DNA of 64,000 nt from Modestobacter sp. L9-4 (GTDB lineage Bacteria > Actinomycetota > Actinomycetes > Mycobacteriales > Geodermatophilaceae). Numbering within the stretch: the stretch's first letter is position 1; each line of letters starts with the position of its first letter. A model generated the notes under the pieces. The model saw only the letters and a program-made list of their open reading frames with translations, made no database searches and was not told the origin of the DNA. The DNA is taken from NCBI RefSeq assembly GCF_019112525.1, contig NZ_CP077800.1, forward strand, positions 1,550,001 through 1,614,000. Reading direction: 5' to 3'. This document shows positions 47,499-54,125 of this stretch, in pieces. The position numbers and the translations under genes are program-made.

Positions 47499-47529
47499 GA
47501 CCGGACCCGCGGAGGGCACCGCTCCGGTC
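47499..47529 (-). terminator. hairpin overlapping the stop of the GGDEF/EAL gene
   Basis: Arms GACCGGA (47499-47505) and TCCGGTC (47523-47529) overlap the stop codon by 2 nt. It is short and only a weak terminator candidate. Confidence 0.35.
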
Positions 47530-50086
47530 AGGTCCGGACGAACAGCCGTCGGTGGGTGGCCCCCGGGGGTGCCGAGCGCACCCCGGTGCGGGCGAGCAGC
47601 CAGCCCTCCAGCCGGTCCTCCGGCAGCGGGCGGCTGACCAGGAAGCCCTGCAGCTTGTCGCAGCCCATCTGGGCCAGCAGGTCGCGGGTGACCTCGTCCT
47701 CGACGCCCTCGGCCACGACCCGCAGGCCGAGGTTGTGAGCCAGCTCGACGATCGAGCGGGCGATGAAGGACTCGTTCTGGCTGGTGGACATGCCCAGCAC
47801 GAAGGACTTGTCGATCTTCAGCTCGTCGATCGGCAGCAGCCGCAGCTGGGACAGCGACGAGTAGCCGGTCCCGAAGTCGTCCATCGACAGCCGCAGGCCC
47901 AGGGCGTGCAGGTCGGCCAGCACGGTGCTGTTGCGCACCGTGTCGTCGACGACGCTGCCCTCGGTGAGCTCCAGGGTGAGCAGGTCCCCGGGCACGCCGT
48001 GCTCGCGCAGGGCGTTGCGCACCCGGTCGACCAGGTCCGGCTCGACGAGGCAGCGGGCGGAGAGGTTCACCGCGACCGAGATGGCGATGTCCTGGTCCAG
48101 CCAGCGGCGGCACCGGTCCAGCGCCAGGCCCAGGACGTGGTCGGTCAGCGAGCCGATCCGGCCGATCTGCTCGGCGAGGCTGATGAAGTCCTCGGGCGGG
48201 ACGTCGCCGTAGCGCGGGTGGTGCCAGCGGACCAGGGTCTCCACCGAGACGATGTCGGCGGTGCGCGCGTCGATGATCGGCTGGTAGACGACGCTGATCT
48301 GCCCCTCGGCCATCGCGGTCTCCAGCTCCGTGCCCAGCTGCAGCCGGCGCAGGCTCTGCTGGTCGAGCACCGGGTGGTAGGTGGCCACGCCGGCGGAGGT
48401 GTGCGCGGCCAGCAGCGCGACGTCGGCCCGCTGGATGAGCGTGCCGGCGTCCGAGCCGTGCACCGGGGCCGCGGCGACGCCGATGGTGAGGGAGACCTCC
48501 AGGTCCAGGCCGGCGACCCGGGCCCGGGTCGAGGCTGCCTCGCGCAGCCGGCGGGCGGCGTGCTCGGTGGCGGCCAGGGACAGCCCCGGCAGCAGGACGG
48601 CGAACTGCCCGCCCTCCATCCGGGCGACGACCGCCTGCGGCGGGGCGTGCTCGCGCAGCAGCCCGGCGGTCACCAGCAGCAGCTCGTCGCTGGCGGCGTG
48701 GCCGAGCGTGTCGGTGACGTCGGTGTAGCCGTCGAGGGCGGCGAGGACCAGGCCGGCGCGGGCCATGGCCGGGTCGACCGCCAGCAGTGCGTCGATCTCC
48801 GCGGCCAGCCGCTGCCGGTTGGGCAGCCCGGTCAGCCGGTCGTGGTCGGCGTCGTAACGGATCTGGGCCATCAGCTGCTGCTGCCGGATCGCGGCGTTGA
48901 CGTGGGTGAGCATCGAGTCCAGCGCGCCCCGGTCACCGTCGACGAAGTTGACGATGTCGCCCTGACGGTCGCAGACCTCCAGGTAGCCCGGCTCACCGGC
49001 GGCGGTGACCACGGGGGCGCCGAGGACCTCGCGGGCGGCCCGGCGGTCCAGCGCGGCCCGCTCCGGGGCGTCGGCGCGGGTGGCCGACAGCAGCACCGAG
49101 CCCCCGGCCTGGACCGCCAGGGACCGGCGGCGCAGCAGGTCGTCGGGGTCGCCGGGGCCGTCGTACCAGCGCAGCCCGCCCTCGGCGGCGTCGACGACGA
49201 GCTGCGGCCCGTCGTCGAGGTAGGGCGGGAGCCACAGTGCGGCCCGGTCGGCGTTGAGCAGCTCACGGACGGCGCGGACGATCTCCCGGGTGCCCGCCTC
49301 GTCGGGGGTGACCGACTCGACGCGCCGGGCGAAGTCGTAGACGCGCTGCACGGTGCGCCGTTCCCGCGAGGCGCGGGAGGACTGGCGGAACAGCAGCACC
49401 CCGGCCACGAAGGCCGGCGCGATCAGCGCCCAGGCCCACGACGTCTCGCGCGTGACCAGCATCCCGATGACGGCGACGACCGCGCACAGCGGGCCGACGA
49501 CGGCGTTGGGCACCGCCGAGACCCAGAAGGACCAGCCGGGGAAGCCCTCGGTCAGGGTGATGACCGCACCCACGCCCAGGACGCTGACGACCCAGACGAC
49601 GAGCATCGCCACCACGAGCACCAGCCAGCTCAGCGGGTCCGCGACGTCCACCCGCGGGAGGACGGCCAGCACCCCCAGGGCGGCGGCCAGCTCGACCACG
49701 GCCAGGGCCACGTTGAAGGTCAGCTTCACCGTGGGGCTGCCGCGCAGGCGCATCACCACGGCGATCGCCACGACCTGGGCGACCGCGGTCCAGAGGCCGC
49801 CGACCTCGACCAGCCCGACGACGATCGCCAGCTCCGTGGGCGAGGCCGAGATGGTCTGCCGGCGCACCTCGAGGTGCAGCTGCACCGACTCGGTGACCAG
49901 GAAGGCGGCGAGCAGCAGGAGGACGGACAGCACCGACGGCGAGGTGCGCGCGTGCCAGAGGACCGGGACGCCGACGAGCACGGCCAGCACCAGCGCCAGG
50001 ACGGCGATGGTCCAGGGGCGCCGCAGCAGGGGCGTGGCTCGGATCGCAGGGGCCGTGGTCTCGGCCAACGTCAGCCTGTCTGTCAA
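47528..50086 (-). CDS. membrane GGDEF/EAL protein, probable c-di-GMP phosphodiesterase
   Basis: The 852-residue protein has about eight hydrophobic segments (residues ~25-235), a GAF-like region (~245-400), a GGDEF domain (~415-570) and an EAL domain (~585-840). The GGDEF signature is degenerate (RMEGGQF instead of GGDEF, near residue 490), so cyclase activity is unlikely. The EAL domain keeps ETL (near 614), VNLSA, LELTEG, DDFGTG (near 736), LKIDKSF and VAEGVED, all the metal and catalytic positions I can check, so c-di-GMP hydrolysis is likely. The start appears to be TTG at 50086 without a ribosome site; TACCGT (50103-50108) could be a -10 box for it. Confidence 0.9.
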   Translation of the reverse strand: MTDRLTLAETTAPAIRATPLLRRPWTIAVLALVLAVLVGVPVLWHARTSPSVLSVLLLLAAFLVTESVQLHLEVRRQTISASPTELAIVVGLVEVGGLWTAVAQVVAIAVVMRLRGSPTVKLTFNVALAVVELAAALGVLAVLPRVDVADPLSWLVLVVAMLVVWVVSVLGVGAVITLTEGFPGWSFWVSAVPNAVVGPLCAVVAVIGMLVTRETSWAWALIAPAFVAGVLLFRQSSRASRERRTVQRVYDFARRVESVTPDEAGTREIVRAVRELLNADRAALWLPPYLDDGPQLVVDAAEGGLRWYDGPGDPDDLLRRRSLAVQAGGSVLLSATRADAPERAALDRRAAREVLGAPVVTAAGEPGYLEVCDRQGDIVNFVDGDRGALDSMLTHVNAAIRQQQLMAQIRYDADHDRLTGLPNRQRLAAEIDALLAVDPAMARAGLVLAALDGYTDVTDTLGHAASDELLLVTAGLLREHAPPQAVVARMEGGQFAVLLPGLSLAATEHAARRLREAASTRARVAGLDLEVSLTIGVAAAPVHGSDAGTLIQRADVALLAAHTSAGVATYHPVLDQQSLRRLQLGTELETAMAEGQISVVYQPIIDARTADIVSVETLVRWHHPRYGDVPPEDFISLAEQIGRIGSLTDHVLGLALDRCRRWLDQDIAISVAVNLSARCLVEPDLVDRVRNALREHGVPGDLLTLELTEGSVVDDTVRNSTVLADLHALGLRLSMDDFGTGYSSLSQLRLLPIDELKIDKSFVLGMSTSQNESFIARSIVELAHNLGLRVVAEGVEDEVTRDLLAQMGCDKLQGFLVSRPLPEDRLEGWLLARTGVRSAPPGATHRRLFVRT

Positions 50087-50102
50087 AGGGGTGCGGAGGC
50101 TG

Positions 50103-50108
50103 ACGGTA
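50103..50108 (-). promoter_or_regulatory. candidate -10 box for the GGDEF/EAL gene
   Basis: TACCGT on the minus strand, ending 16 nt before the TTG start, with no matching -35 box. If real, the GGDEF/EAL gene has its own start separate from the small ORF upstream. Confidence 0.35.
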
Positions 50109-50152
50109 GCAACGAAGGAGGGCCGGTGCGGGGGATCTCACCCCGTCGAGGG

Positions 50153-50182
50153 GACGGGGGCTGCGGCGCCCCAGCCCCCGTC
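50153..50182 (-). terminator. terminator-like hairpin between the small ORF and the GGDEF/EAL gene
   Basis: Perfect 11-bp stem GACGGGGGCTG (50153-50163) with CAGCCCCCGTC (50172-50182) and an 8-nt loop, 6 nt past the stop of the 29-codon ORF and 66 nt before the GGDEF/EAL start. It may end the small transcript or act as an attenuator. Confidence 0.6.
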
Positions 50183-50188
50183 AGCGGG

Positions 50189-50278
50189 TCAGCGGTTCCA
50201 GCGCCACGTGCGGTTCCACCGCCAGGTCGCGCGGGAGGCGGCGGCGGTGCTGGTGCGCGAGGTGGTGGTGGCGCTCAT
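50189..50278 (-). CDS. 29-residue Trp/Arg-rich small ORF
   Basis: The reading is MSATTTSRTSTAAASRAT followed by WRWNRTWRWNR and stop. AGGAG lies 7 nt before the ATG, one of the cleaner ribosome sites in this part of the window. The C-terminal half repeats WRWNR; the two copies use different Arg codons (CGG and CGC), which hints at selection on the protein. It has four Trp in 29 residues. I do not recognise a family. It could be a leader peptide for the GGDEF/EAL gene, or a free small protein with a Thr/Ser/Ala N-terminus and an amphipathic cationic end. A structured leader precedes it and a hairpin follows it. Confidence 0.6.
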   Translation of the reverse strand: MSATTTSRTSTAAASRATWRWNRTWRWNR

Positions 50279-50301
50279 GGCGATCTCCTGGGGGCAGCAC
50301 G

Positions 50302-50351
50302 GGACGACGGGGGGGCGCGGTAGCCGCCCACGCGGGGGCAGAGCGTCGTCC
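50302..50351 (-). promoter_or_regulatory. structured leader of the small ORF
   Basis: Outer arms GGACGACG (50302-50309) and CGTCGTCC (50344-50351) enclose a GC-rich region with an inner GCGG/CCGC hairpin. On the transcript it lies 23 nt before the small-ORF start. No known riboswitch class was recognised. The rest of 50352-50469 shows no gene. Confidence 0.4.
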
Positions 50352-50469
50352 GGCACAGACCGCGATTGGGAGACTGCGGCGTGTCACCCACACGGGGCAA
50401 GCATTGACGCGCCCGAGTGAACAGTGGTGGTCGTGTCGTCACGTTGAGTGGCTGGCCAACACCTCGTCG

Positions 50470-52530
50470 TCATCGGCGACCGGTGATCCCGGGCCGCTGC
50501 TGCGGCTCGCGTCCGCCCTCGCGCCGGTCCGGGAGGTCACCGTGCATGTCCTCCAGCTGGTCCAGCAGCCCCGGCTGGGGCGGCAGCGGCCGCCCCAGCA
50601 CCTCCGTCGCCCGGGCGAAGCCGGCCTCGGCCTCCGCGGAGACGGCCGCCGGGTCGCCCCCGGCCGCCCCGAGCACCGCCCCGGCCCACCGCCGGGCGTG
50701 CCACGCCGCGTAGGTGTCACCGGTGTCCGGCCCGATGTCGACGGTGCCGTCGAACCCGAGCTGGCGCTGCAGCTCCCCGGTGACGCCCTCCACGACCTCC
50801 CCGTACGGCTGCCGCCAGGTGAGCAGCTTCACCGGCAGGGTGACCGCGGTGTCCCACAGGAGCTGCTGGTCGACCTCCGACGACTGCGCCCGCGCGTGCT
50901 CGAGCACGTAGCTGATCCGCTGCCCGTACTCCTCCACCGCGACGTAGCCACCGGCCACCCGTCCACCGTCCGCCGGCCCCGCGAGCCCCTCGGCGAGCGC
51001 CCCCCGCACCGCGTCCCCGAGGGTGCGCACCCGGGCGTCGTCGGCGAGCAGGTGTCCCAGGCCCCGCAGCGTCAGGTCGGTCGCGTCGTCCACCTCCCCG
51101 GCGCCGACGCCGGCCGCGGCACCCAGCACCGGCAGGACGACGTCCATCCGGCCGGCGACCAGGTCGGTGACCGCGCTCCCCACGGCCGTCGCCAGGGCGT
51201 CGTCGACGAGGACCTCCTCGGTCGTCCCGGGCCGCAGACCCTGCCCCAGCGCGTGCAGCGCAGCGGCGGCCACCTGCGGCGCCTCCGGTGCCCGCGCCGC
51301 CAGGCCGATCACCTCCACCAGGTCGGACACGCCCCCGGGCCAGGAGCGGGCGAGCAGCCCCGTCCAGGACACCGGGTCGGCGAGGGTGGCGGCCGCGGCG
51401 CCCGGGTCGCCGGCGGCGACGAGCACCGCGAGGGCCGCCCCCAGCGGGTCGGGCAGCGTCGCCGTGGTCCGCTCGACCGCCGTGGCGCCCTGCGCCGCCT
51501 CGCGGTCCAGCACCTGACGACCCCAGCCGACGGCCAGGCGGGTGCCACTGCCCGCGCGCCCGGCCGCGGCCAGCGCGGTGAGCACCATCCCCATGCCCAC
51601 CGCGACGGTGTCCGGCGTGCCGTCCGGGTCGGTGGGGTCGAGCCGGACGCCGCCCAGCACCTCGGCGGCCCGGCTCCCCTCCCCCGCGGCACCGGCCGCT
51701 GCGGCGAGCAGCCCGGCCAGCGCCTCCCGCTCCGTCTCGACCGACCGGCCGCCCAGGACGGTGAGCAGCCAGGTCACGCCGTCCTCGCCGAGCCGGCCCA
51801 GCAGCGCGTCGGCGAACGCCGGGGAGGCGGCGTACGCGGTCCAGCGACGGGCCGCGGCGTCGAGCTCGGCGGCGGTCATCGGCCGCTCCAGCTCCGCGGC
51901 GGCCTGCACGCCCAGTGCGGTGAGCGCACCGTCGCCCCAGCCGGGCAGCACGCCGGCCAGCCGGAGGGTGACCCGCTCGACGTCCCCGGGCCGGGCCTCT
52001 CCGCCGAAGGGGGCGCTCAGCGACCCGAGCAGCGCCGCGGCCGAGGAGGCGTCGTCGGCCAGGTCGGACAGCAGGGCGGAGTGCTGGGCACCCCGCGCGG
52101 CGTCGTCCCGGGCGACCTCCCGGACCAGGGCGACCGCCTCGGGTGGCGGGGTGCCGGCGTCCGGGCCGTCGACGAGCACGGCCAGCCGGGCCGCCGCGGT
52201 GGCGTACTGGTGCCGCTGGTCCTCCCGCAGCGAGGCGAGCCGGGACAGCACCGAGGTCCACAGCTCGGCGTGGTCGCCCAGCCGGTCGGCCGCGGCGGTC
52301 ACGGCCGCGTGCAGGTCGGCCGCGACCGCGCCGGCCGCGGTGACCTCGGCCGCGGCTACGACGGCGTCGGCACCCTGCCAGCCGTGGACGACGGTCGCCG
52401 GCTGCAGCAGGTGCACGGTGAGCCCGGCCGAGAACCCGGCGGAGGTCAGCTGGTCGACCACGGTGCCCAGCGCGGGTGCCGAGCCCGGCGGGTCCGGCAA
52501 CGGCGCCGGCGGGGGCAGGACGGTGCTCAC
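50470..52530 (-). CDS. large Ala-rich protein, possible type VII secretion substrate
   Basis: The 686-residue protein has no signal peptide or membrane segment and reads as one long Ala/Leu/Asp/Glu-rich helical protein. Near residues 535-600 it has a more conserved-looking segment (GGYVAVEEYGQRISYVLEHA, later TLPVKLLTWRQPYGEVVEGV). The organisation resembles the DUF6571-type proteins paired with EspC-like proteins in actinobacteria; this assignment is from memory and uncertain. GTG at 52530 overlaps the upstream small gene's stop (GTGA), so translation is coupled. No ESX machinery is in the window. Confidence 0.75.
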   Translation of the reverse strand: MSTVLPPPAPLPDPPGSAPALGTVVDQLTSAGFSAGLTVHLLQPATVVHGWQGADAVVAAAEVTAAGAVAADLHAAVTAAADRLGDHAELWTSVLSRLASLREDQRHQYATAAARLAVLVDGPDAGTPPPEAVALVREVARDDAARGAQHSALLSDLADDASSAAALLGSLSAPFGGEARPGDVERVTLRLAGVLPGWGDGALTALGVQAAAELERPMTAAELDAAARRWTAYAASPAFADALLGRLGEDGVTWLLTVLGGRSVETEREALAGLLAAAAGAAGEGSRAAEVLGGVRLDPTDPDGTPDTVAVGMGMVLTALAAAGRAGSGTRLAVGWGRQVLDREAAQGATAVERTTATLPDPLGAALAVLVAAGDPGAAAATLADPVSWTGLLARSWPGGVSDLVEVIGLAARAPEAPQVAAAALHALGQGLRPGTTEEVLVDDALATAVGSAVTDLVAGRMDVVLPVLGAAAGVGAGEVDDATDLTLRGLGHLLADDARVRTLGDAVRGALAEGLAGPADGGRVAGGYVAVEEYGQRISYVLEHARAQSSEVDQQLLWDTAVTLPVKLLTWRQPYGEVVEGVTGELQRQLGFDGTVDIGPDTGDTYAAWHARRWAGAVLGAAGGDPAAVSAEAEAGFARATEVLGRPLPPQPGLLDQLEDMHGDLPDRREGGREPQQRPGITGRR

Positions 52531-52808
52531 TCCGGCACCCCGGCACCGCGGGACGGGAGCAGCGAGCCGTCCAGGTGCAGCCACGAGTCGGCGGCCGCGG
52601 CCACCGCACCGCCGAGCCAGGACAGCTCACCGGCCAGGCAGCTGCTCGCGGTGCGCACCGTCTCGGTGAAGCCGAGCACCGCGGTGCCCAGCGGGCCGCC
52701 GACCGGTGCCGGGTCGACCGCCCGGCCGGCCTGGGCCGCGCGGACGGACGCACCATCCAGCACGCCGGCCAGCGCGTGGAGCTGCTCGGGGAGGACCTCG
52801 ATCGCCAT
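52527..52808 (-). CDS. EspC-like type VII secretion target protein
   Basis: The 93-residue helical protein has the shape of the ESX EspC/T7SS-target family: a first helix (VLPEQLHALAGVLDGASVRA), a GGPLGTAVLGF turn and a second long helix ending in DSWLHLDGSLL. A WLG sequence (Trp64) occurs, but inside the second helix rather than in the turn, so it is not a classic WXG100 protein. It is coupled to the large downstream gene by a GTGA overlap, as expected for a co-secreted partner. Start ATG 52808 has no strong ribosome site. Confidence 0.7.
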   Translation of the reverse strand: MAIEVLPEQLHALAGVLDGASVRAAQAGRAVDPAPVGGPLGTAVLGFTETVRTASSCLAGELSWLGGAVAAAADSWLHLDGSLLPSRGAGVPE

Positions 52809-53567: not shown

Positions 53568-53633
53568 CAAGACCGGGGACGACGTCCTCGCCGGGTCCCC
53601 GGCGGGGTGTCACCCCGCTGAGGAGGAACCGAC

Positions 53634-54125
53634 ATGGCCGATGCGTCCTTCGACGTGGTCAGCAAGGTCGACCGGCAAGAGGTCGACAACGCCCTCAACC
53701 AGGCGGCCAAGGAGCTCTCGCAGCGCTTCGACTTCCGTGGCGTGAACGCCACCATCGTCTGGGCCGGCGAGGAGGGGGTGACCCTGCAGGCCGACACCGA
53801 GGACCGCGTGGTCGCCGCGCTCGAGGTCTTCCGCGAGAAGCTGGTCAAGCGCGGCATCTCGATGAAGGCGCTCGACGCCGAGGACCCGCAGTCGTCGGGG
53901 CGGATCTACAAGATCTCCGCGACGATCAAGCAGGGCATCGCCTCGGACAAGGCCAAGGAGATCGCCAAGGCCATCCGCGACGAGGGCCCCAAGGGCGTGC
54001 AGGCGCAGATCCAGGGCGACCAGCTGCGGGTCACCGGCAAGAAGCGCGACGACCTGCAGGCGGTGCAGCAGCTGCTCAAGGGCAAGGACTTCGAGATCGC
54101 CCTGCAGTTCGACAACTACCGCTGA
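53634..54125 (+). CDS. yajQ: YajQ-family nucleotide-binding protein
   Basis: The 163-residue protein has the family pattern [30 protein letters not shown]-type [40 protein letters not shown] and ends ALQFDNYR. Xanthomonas and Pseudomonas members bind c-di-GMP and act as transcription cofactors; this is known for those proteins and only likely here. GAGGAG lies 5 nt before the ATG. Stop overlaps the convergent hydrolase by 10 nt. Confidence 0.95.

Follow-up and report, generated by a model that had tools for sequence, protein, structure and literature searches.

A conserved tryptophan-repeat microprotein gene beside a membrane-bound GAF-GGDEF-EAL gene in Geodermatophilaceae

Introduction

Sensor kinases of the 5TMR-LYT type and their GGDEF/EAL fusions have been described as receptors with an S-component fold (PMC11109136), and for CleD an isolated Arg-rich peptide of tandem [Y/F]XGP[D/E][R/K]R motifs suffices for binding of cyclic di-GMP (c-di-GMP) (PMC5677366). 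Here we describe a locus that touches both themes, located in a 64,000-nucleotide (nt) window of the genome of Modestobacter sp. L9-4 (contig NZ_CP077800.1, positions 1,550,001 to 1,614,000), which is a single contig of 4.22 Mb. The locus consists of an unlisted 29-codon open reading frame (ORF) that ends in a tandem tryptophan (Trp) repeat and, downstream on the same strand, a gene for a membrane-bound GAF-GGDEF-EAL protein.

Our preferred reading, a tentative one to which we give a little less than even odds, is that the ORF encodes an independently transcribed Trp-repeat microprotein that acts as a functional partner of the neighboring protein, and that its repeats would be bound, and are probably sensed, by the S-component-fold receptor domain of that protein. 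This reading is drawn from selection at the peptide level, the concerted evolution of the repeat units, the pairing of the two genes across the family, the predicted S-component fold and the occurrence of Trp repeats beside distant homologues of the receptor.

Results

A small-protein gene conserved across the family

The window ORF encodes MSATTTSRTSTAAASRATWRWNRTWRWNR, and its final twelve codons form two copies of TWRWNR that differ only at ACC/ACG and CGG/CGC. A preliminary description of the window had proposed an unlisted 29-codon gene with a doubled WRWNR unit whose copies differ in one Arg codon, preceded by an AGGAG site 7 nt before the ATG. The ORF is present on the minus strand with its frame conserved across the family, and the doubling and the CGG/CGC difference stand; the full unit is larger by a threonine whose codon also differs, and the AGGAG site lies at a distance of 6 nt.

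Relatives were collected through the untranslated leader of the gene, first with an 84-nt query and then with an RNA model (R1) built from 38 sequences. This model matched 101 of the family's 112 genomes, including 92 of the 96 that are of good quality, in 9 of 12 genera. At the level of the order it matched 75 of 397 genomes, all 75 within Geodermatophilaceae, and at the level of the class 2 of 394, both again from the family. In a named collection that represents each of 84,980 species by a single genome, the exact leader pattern occurred in 59 stretches, all but one assigned by name to Geodermatophilaceae; the lone outside record (L129, L241), titled Bacillus sp. AZ43 and unverified, has a Geodermatophilaceae leader and probably bears a wrong name.

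Downstream of the leader, an ORF with tandem hexads at or close to its C-terminal end is present in 100 of the 101 genomes, the exception being G088, in which a single RW remains. The hexad is mostly R-[GTSN]-x-[KR]-W-[GSTNA], with R-G-x-[KR]-W-[GST] as its typical form and RGVKWT x3, RGNRWS x4 and RTNKWT x4 as examples; in G108-G111 M or S precedes the Trp. An orthologue of the EAL gene follows on the same strand in 100 of 101 ORF loci, and the single locus that lacks it (G032) lies at a contig end. In the genus of the window the doubled-unit pattern matches 18 of 23 genomes, beside the same EAL gene; three more (G004, G007 and G017, the last with one Trp lost) have variant units, and G013 has three units of a different form. 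In Modestobacter x is Trp and the unit number two in all but G013. The N-terminal half of the peptide varies within the genus while the repeat is constant, and the leader is better conserved than the peptide's first half.

Loss of the frame in close relatives had been named beforehand as an observation that would count against this gene. Frame, repeat, leader and neighbor are all kept family-wide, a conservation that exceeds chance, and the ORF is a genuine small-protein gene of Geodermatophilaceae. Routine annotation has probably missed it, because neither Pfam nor NCBIfam has a family that fits the peptide and the leader has no match in Rfam. Searches with the peptide itself were of little use: tblastn of the 29 residues over the family gave many weak matches, tblastn against plasmids gave none, and a three-hexad DNA pattern in the class matched 89 of 296 genomes, those listed being mostly simple repeats, with many matches for a reversed-pattern control as well.

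Selection and concerted evolution of the repeat units

Comparison of adjacent units within arrays, based on automatic unit calls, yielded 762 identical codon pairs and 203 that differ, and 198 of these 203 differences are synonymous against 67.5 expected by chance. Even at the variable x codon, 40 of the differences between units are synonymous and 1 is non-synonymous. Of 92 arrays, 83 consist of identical units, and 7 of the remaining 9 vary only at the first residue of unit 1. Between species the picture is different: on a tree of 99 EAL proteins (G032 and G034 are absent from it), with the same automatic calls, the minimum number of changes is 34 at x, 20 at the Lys/Arg site, 32 at the last site and 22 in copy number. 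Selection thus acts on the peptide, and the units alter together between species yet stay identical within one array. This pattern suggests a function dependent on a peptide that is periodic or repeated, and it makes the arrays a clear-cut example of how a bacterial microprotein evolves in concert.

The partner gene

The downstream protein matches the Pfam families EAL (1.1e-69), GGDEF (6.7e-27) and GAF (3.3e-5). Judged by conservation, its gene probably starts at TTG 50068 and not at 50086. The GGDEF signature is degenerate (EGGQF) and the EAL-type motifs sought are all present, so that the protein is probably a c-di-GMP phosphodiesterase. Its N-terminal membrane domain is predicted to have the fold of an energy-coupling factor (ECF) S-component; Pfam ECF_trnsprt matches 2 of 20 members of the receptor family (best E 0.0011), and PF07694 (5TMR-LYT) is absent among the 17 Pfam families matched by any of these 20 at E<=1.

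Tryptophan repeats beside distant receptor homologues

A search with the membrane domain of the EAL protein in 28 genomes found matches in 18. Inspection upstream of 16 such receptor loci revealed other Trp repeats in 7 and none in 7, while 2 (L291 and L293, at contig ends) were uninformative; one positive locus, L298, has only two Trp. The repeats include RNGRWG x3, EGVSWG, EGVSWN, FVDGNTWT x5, GVSWS, a weak DGAGWG and those of a second pair in the window genome itself (L383, G000:C1:2821600-2825900), where an S8 peptidase with a Trp-repeat tail lies upstream of an EAL receptor paralogue.

A profile of the receptor domain (A2) matched 60 of 384 class genomes at E<=1e-10. Among the first 30 loci, six of which have less than 500 nt upstream, 10 showed at least 4 periodic Trp in an upstream ORF (the original threshold was 3 Trp). 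A second batch took 40 loci down the hit list, passing over one hit whose upstream stretch was too short and including one lower-ranked hit; two of the 40 lacked sufficient length, and 17 of the 38 evaluable loci were positive and 21 negative. In the 17 positives the Trp-bearing ORF ends 33-273 nt before the matched receptor domain, measured to the start of the domain match rather than to the start codon. Controls were empty, with 0 of 38 on the antisense strand and 0 of 37 at 750-1500 nt upstream among loci having any such sequence. A third batch of 20, picked from known positives and negatives for reading the proteins, is excluded from these counts.

Of 26 repeat-bearing ORFs that were read, 24 are long and 2 encode small peptides with periods of 8 and 9, and 8 of 8 long repeat-bearing proteins tested are S8 peptidases with period-5 tails. 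The window ORF, on a 29-residue scale with period 6 and no attached S8 domain, stands outside this S8-tail class. It does fit the broader class defined here, a tandem Trp repeat that ends shortly upstream, on the same strand, of an S-component EAL receptor. The Trp repeats before distant receptor homologues are mostly S8-peptidase-like tails, and the window gene thus represents, in free-standing form, a more widespread type of Trp-repeat partner.

Copy number, residue x and a possible action of the peptide itself

The number of units follows the nature of x. Each of the 26 arrays in which x is W or F consists of two units, arrays with polar x mostly contain three to five, and the lowest copy number thus goes with a bulky aromatic residue. 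Copy number correlates by rank with the Wimley-White value of x (0.71, n=90), and the correlation is 0.50 for the 48 distinct arrays that come from genera other than that of the window. This analysis covers 90 of 92 arrays: the irregular ones of G059 and G104 are left out, G025 is counted as three units by manual assignment, and a further nine arrays that were identified or repaired afterwards are not part of it. Total Trp-plus-x hydrophobicity has a spread of 0.19; shuffling the copy numbers gives a mean spread of 0.28 if done within genera and 0.47 if done freely, and 0 of 5000 shuffles reach so low a spread in either test. These results fit a copy number that compensates for the hydrophobicity of x and keeps total affinity constant. 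Against compensation, genera g3 and g9 show the opposite sign internally, over a narrow range of x, and independent phylogenetic pairs are few: 3-5 run in the expected direction and 0 in the opposite one (sign test 0.06-0.25 for W/F/L), the test being weaker for W/F/L/I/V/M and giving nothing with a three-copy cut.

Compensation of this kind, together with hexads that are basic and contain Trp, would also be expected of a cationic peptide that acts on membranes as a stress peptide or in a toxin-like manner, with constant interfacial hydrophobicity serving membrane binding and with the EAL gene as a syntenic neighbor rather than a target; in three genomes, moreover, the same leader stands before ORFs for proteins that are small and have hydrophobic stretches. 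We consider this explanation unlikely, though less so than the other alternatives. It does not lead one to expect that 100 of 101 loci pair the ORF with one receptor gene, nor that Trp repeats recur beside distant receptor homologues; the charge of the peptide is not constant and rises with copy number, and some arrays have no basic residue before the Trp (RGASWS, RGTMWG).

The GGDEF and EAL domains of the neighbor raise a further alternative, in which tandem Gly/Arg/aromatic repeats bind or sequester the dinucleotide that the neighbor handles. CleD offers a precedent, in that an isolated Arg-rich tandem-motif peptide is sufficient there, yet the hexad has neither the Pro nor the acidic positions of the CleD motif (PMC5677366). 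Related Trp repeats are, in addition, often non-basic (GSTWS, FVDGNTWT) and sit mostly on long S8-peptidase-like proteins, which makes this alternative improbable.

Two probable transcription units and a structured leader

The perfect 11-bp hairpin proposed behind the stop codon is present (Table 1), and relatives have a strong GC-rich hairpin of different sequence at the same place. All 77 folded loci (of 91) have a local post-stop hairpin of <= -20 kcal/mol (median -33.9), and 68% of the 77 post-stop regions fold more than 2 standard deviations (sd) better than base shuffles, while one third do not. Between this hairpin and the EAL gene an extended -10-like site, TGnTAnnnT, is found at 69 of 81 evaluable loci (1.1% in shuffles), lying 22-75 nt (median 36 nt) before the start codon. 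These figures come from the looser version of the search, for which 81 of 101 loci were evaluable; a stricter expression matched 77 of 91 loci and missed the window's own site. Because of the post-stop hairpin and the separate -10-like site, the small gene and the EAL gene look, from their sequences, like two transcription units. The earlier suggestion of an independent small-protein gene is strongly supported by the repeat ORF in 100 family genomes, almost exclusively synonymous differences between units, a conserved leader of its own and a hairpin ahead of a separate promoter-like site. The putative small-gene promoter (50371-50400) contains GGGTGAC in its spacer, and GGGTGAG lies about 25 nt upstream of the EAL -10-like site (50103-50150); both are conserved in the genus by eye and perhaps mark one shared regulator.

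A structured leader, a short Trp-rich ORF and a strong hairpin between its stop and the EAL gene are also what one would see if translation of a leader peptide controlled EAL expression by attenuation or ribosome stalling, and four Trp codons had been thought to suit Trp-dependent control. Such a role is highly improbable here. The 101 peptides hold 2-5 Trp with no conserved run or number; the residue at the second aromatic site changes freely from genus to genus (W, F, L, V, S and others, with F or a non-aromatic residue outside the window's genus); selection within arrays preserves amino acids and not codons; the hairpin sequence is unconserved; the downstream gene encodes a GAF-GGDEF-EAL protein, not Trp biosynthesis or transport, in 100 of 101 loci; and the extended -10-like site lies downstream of the hairpin. 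With two apparent transcription units and a variable Trp number, attenuation is unsupported, and both Trp attenuation and a codon-level reading were rejected as the main function.

The leader itself is strongly conserved, with GCGGTCTGTGCCGGACGACGCTCTGCCCCCGCGTGGGCGGC almost invariant in 21 genomes. The 8-bp dyad reported at 50302-50351 exists, but its 3' arm is variable, and it was rejected as a conserved element in favor of the 5' block at 50332-50363 and a different hairpin upstream of the Shine-Dalgarno sequence. This second hairpin is formed by GACTGC/GCAGTC, GACAGC/GCTGTC and TGGCTG/CAGCCA in different species. Its stems score 15.30 with their own arms against 14.17 (sd 0.23) with arms swapped between species, and 0 of 2000 permutations score as high, relatedness being uncorrected. 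RNAalifold on a MAFFT alignment (A1) gave only 8 pairs, one changed on both sides, and the variable loop misaligns the 3' arm. The leader shows the covariation expected of a structured cis-acting RNA in general. Rfam 15 over the window found four tRNAs only, the leader reaching no gathering score, and at a lax threshold there were three weak matches in the region (E 1.4-8.9); the whole 274 nt of 50087-50360 fold no better than shuffles (z -0.82, 41 of 200 shuffles equally good). A coding role for the conserved block was rejected, as g9 genomes carry a frame-breaking indel (by eye).

Three g4 genomes (L277, L164 and L278) have a second copy of the leader ahead of ORFs for small proteins of 71, 78 and 48 amino acids, which contain hydrophobic stretches; one lies near an integrase-like ORF (named by eye). 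Because these copies precede other small-protein ORFs, the leader is portable. That the RNA is the active product, with the invariant 5' block at work and the peptide secondary, draws on these copies and on a 14-nt core, GCTCTGCCCCCGCG, that varies little or not at all across the 38-row alignment although three genomes added later depart from it, but is most improbable in view of the very strong purifying selection on the peptide and of Trp-repeat ORFs beside homologues where no leader core was found.

Neighboring genes

Conserved neighbors in the 59 named loci include EAL, DUF520 and FAS1_DH genes; no search was aimed at modifying enzymes of ribosomally synthesized and post-translationally modified peptides. 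The DUF520 (PF04461) gene at 53622-54122 on the plus strand belongs to the YajQ family, described as c-di-GMP binding, and in 32 of the 59 named loci a homologue lies close to the leader. A 704-residue protein encoded upstream (50470-52584) matches nothing in Pfam or NCBIfam, and its homologues lie upstream of the leader in 30 of the 59, at a median identity of 36%.

Table 1. Features of the microprotein locus in window coordinates
Feature	Position	Strand	Remarks
29-codon Trp-repeat microprotein ORF (stop included)	50189..50278	minus	ATG 50278, TGA 50189; kept in 100 family genomes
Repeat unit 1, TWRWNR	50210..50227	minus	
Repeat unit 2, TWRWNR	50192..50209	minus	only synonymous differences from unit 1
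AGGAG Shine-Dalgarno	50285..50289	minus	6 nt before ATG; GGAG kept in alignments
Hairpin region between conserved block and Shine-Dalgarno	50292..50329	minus	hairpin covaries in most relatives
Almost invariant 5' leader block, which may close a GCGG/CCGC stem around a conserved loop	50332..50363	minus	R1 matches 101/112
Putative promoter, TTGCCC (50395-50400) / CAGTCT (50371-50376), 18-nt spacer with conserved GGGTGAC	50371..50400	minus	conserved; promoter role putative
11-bp hairpin after stop, probable terminator	50153..50182	minus	position and strength conserved, sequence not
Extended -10-like site TGCTACCGT of EAL gene	50103..50111	minus	TGnTAnnnT
Membrane-bound GAF-GGDEF-EAL protein, conserved partner gene	47528..50068	minus	listed ORF starts 50086; follows small ORF in 100/101 loci
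N-terminal membrane domain, predicted ECF S-component fold	49424..50026	minus	

Discussion

In the mechanism that we favor for the pair, the small ORF would be transcribed independently and presumably translated into a leaderless peptide, whose only conserved part appears to be a C-terminal or near-C-terminal array of identical, mostly basic Trp-containing hexads. The S-component-like domain of the partner may recognize these repeats as its input, either as a ligand or as a tether, and this recognition would set the phosphodiesterase activity of the EAL protein, while the structured leader could control the amount of peptide. Topology weighs most heavily against the proposal, as the small peptides show, by eye, no export signal and N termini that look hydrophilic and rich in Ser and Thr.

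A broader version of this proposal, which we regard as possible though doubtful, would make Trp-repeat peptides the ligands of S-component-fold c-di-GMP receptors in general, carried as an S8-peptidase tail in many lineages and as a stand-alone microprotein in Geodermatophilaceae, with a species-specific peptide code setting c-di-GMP. Identity of all units within a strain would then follow from a receptor that reads a periodic peptide, and x would differ by species. If the pairing is functional, an orphan class of GGDEF-EAL receptors in Actinomycetes gains a candidate input, the S-component fold becomes connected with the recognition of peptides, and the presence of Trp-repeat tails on S8 peptidases that adjoin such receptors finds an explanation.

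Comparison with known systems

No description of this gene or pair, nor of S8 peptidases with Trp tails upstream of S-component GGDEF-EAL genes, was found among the titles and abstract openings listed from the open-licence literature of PubMed Central. Those S8 peptidases with Trp pentapeptide tails are among the nearest counterparts; they share with the window gene one Trp per tandem unit at or near the C terminus, an identical gene order and strand and the same receptor family downstream; they differ in a period of 5 rather than 6, in the attached enzyme domain and in showing no common leader. Attenuation leader peptides of the trpL type likewise consist of a short Trp-containing ORF with a hairpin behind it, whereas at the window locus there is no Trp biosynthesis gene, Trp number and spacing vary and the downstream promoter-like site is separate. 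Multi-copy precursors of the yeast alpha-factor type resemble the window family in their identical tandem units, synonymous differences and concerted change between species, but no signal sequence was seen by eye in the window family.

The CleD peptides are comparable in their shortness, their tandem aromatic/Gly/Arg motifs and their c-di-GMP context; their motif is [Y/F]XGP[D/E][R/K]R, to which the hexads do not conform, and the window peptide has no receiver domain (PMC5677366). The 5TMR-LYT receptors share with the window's partner an S-component fold as membrane input, predicted for the partner, and GGDEF and EAL outputs, and the receptor family described here differs from them in having no PF07694 match in 20 members and a Trp-repeat peptide gene alongside (PMC11109136). 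The parts of the locus, a small receptor partner, an S-component receptor and an EAL output, are thus of known kinds, and their combination with an array of identical Trp units appears to be new.
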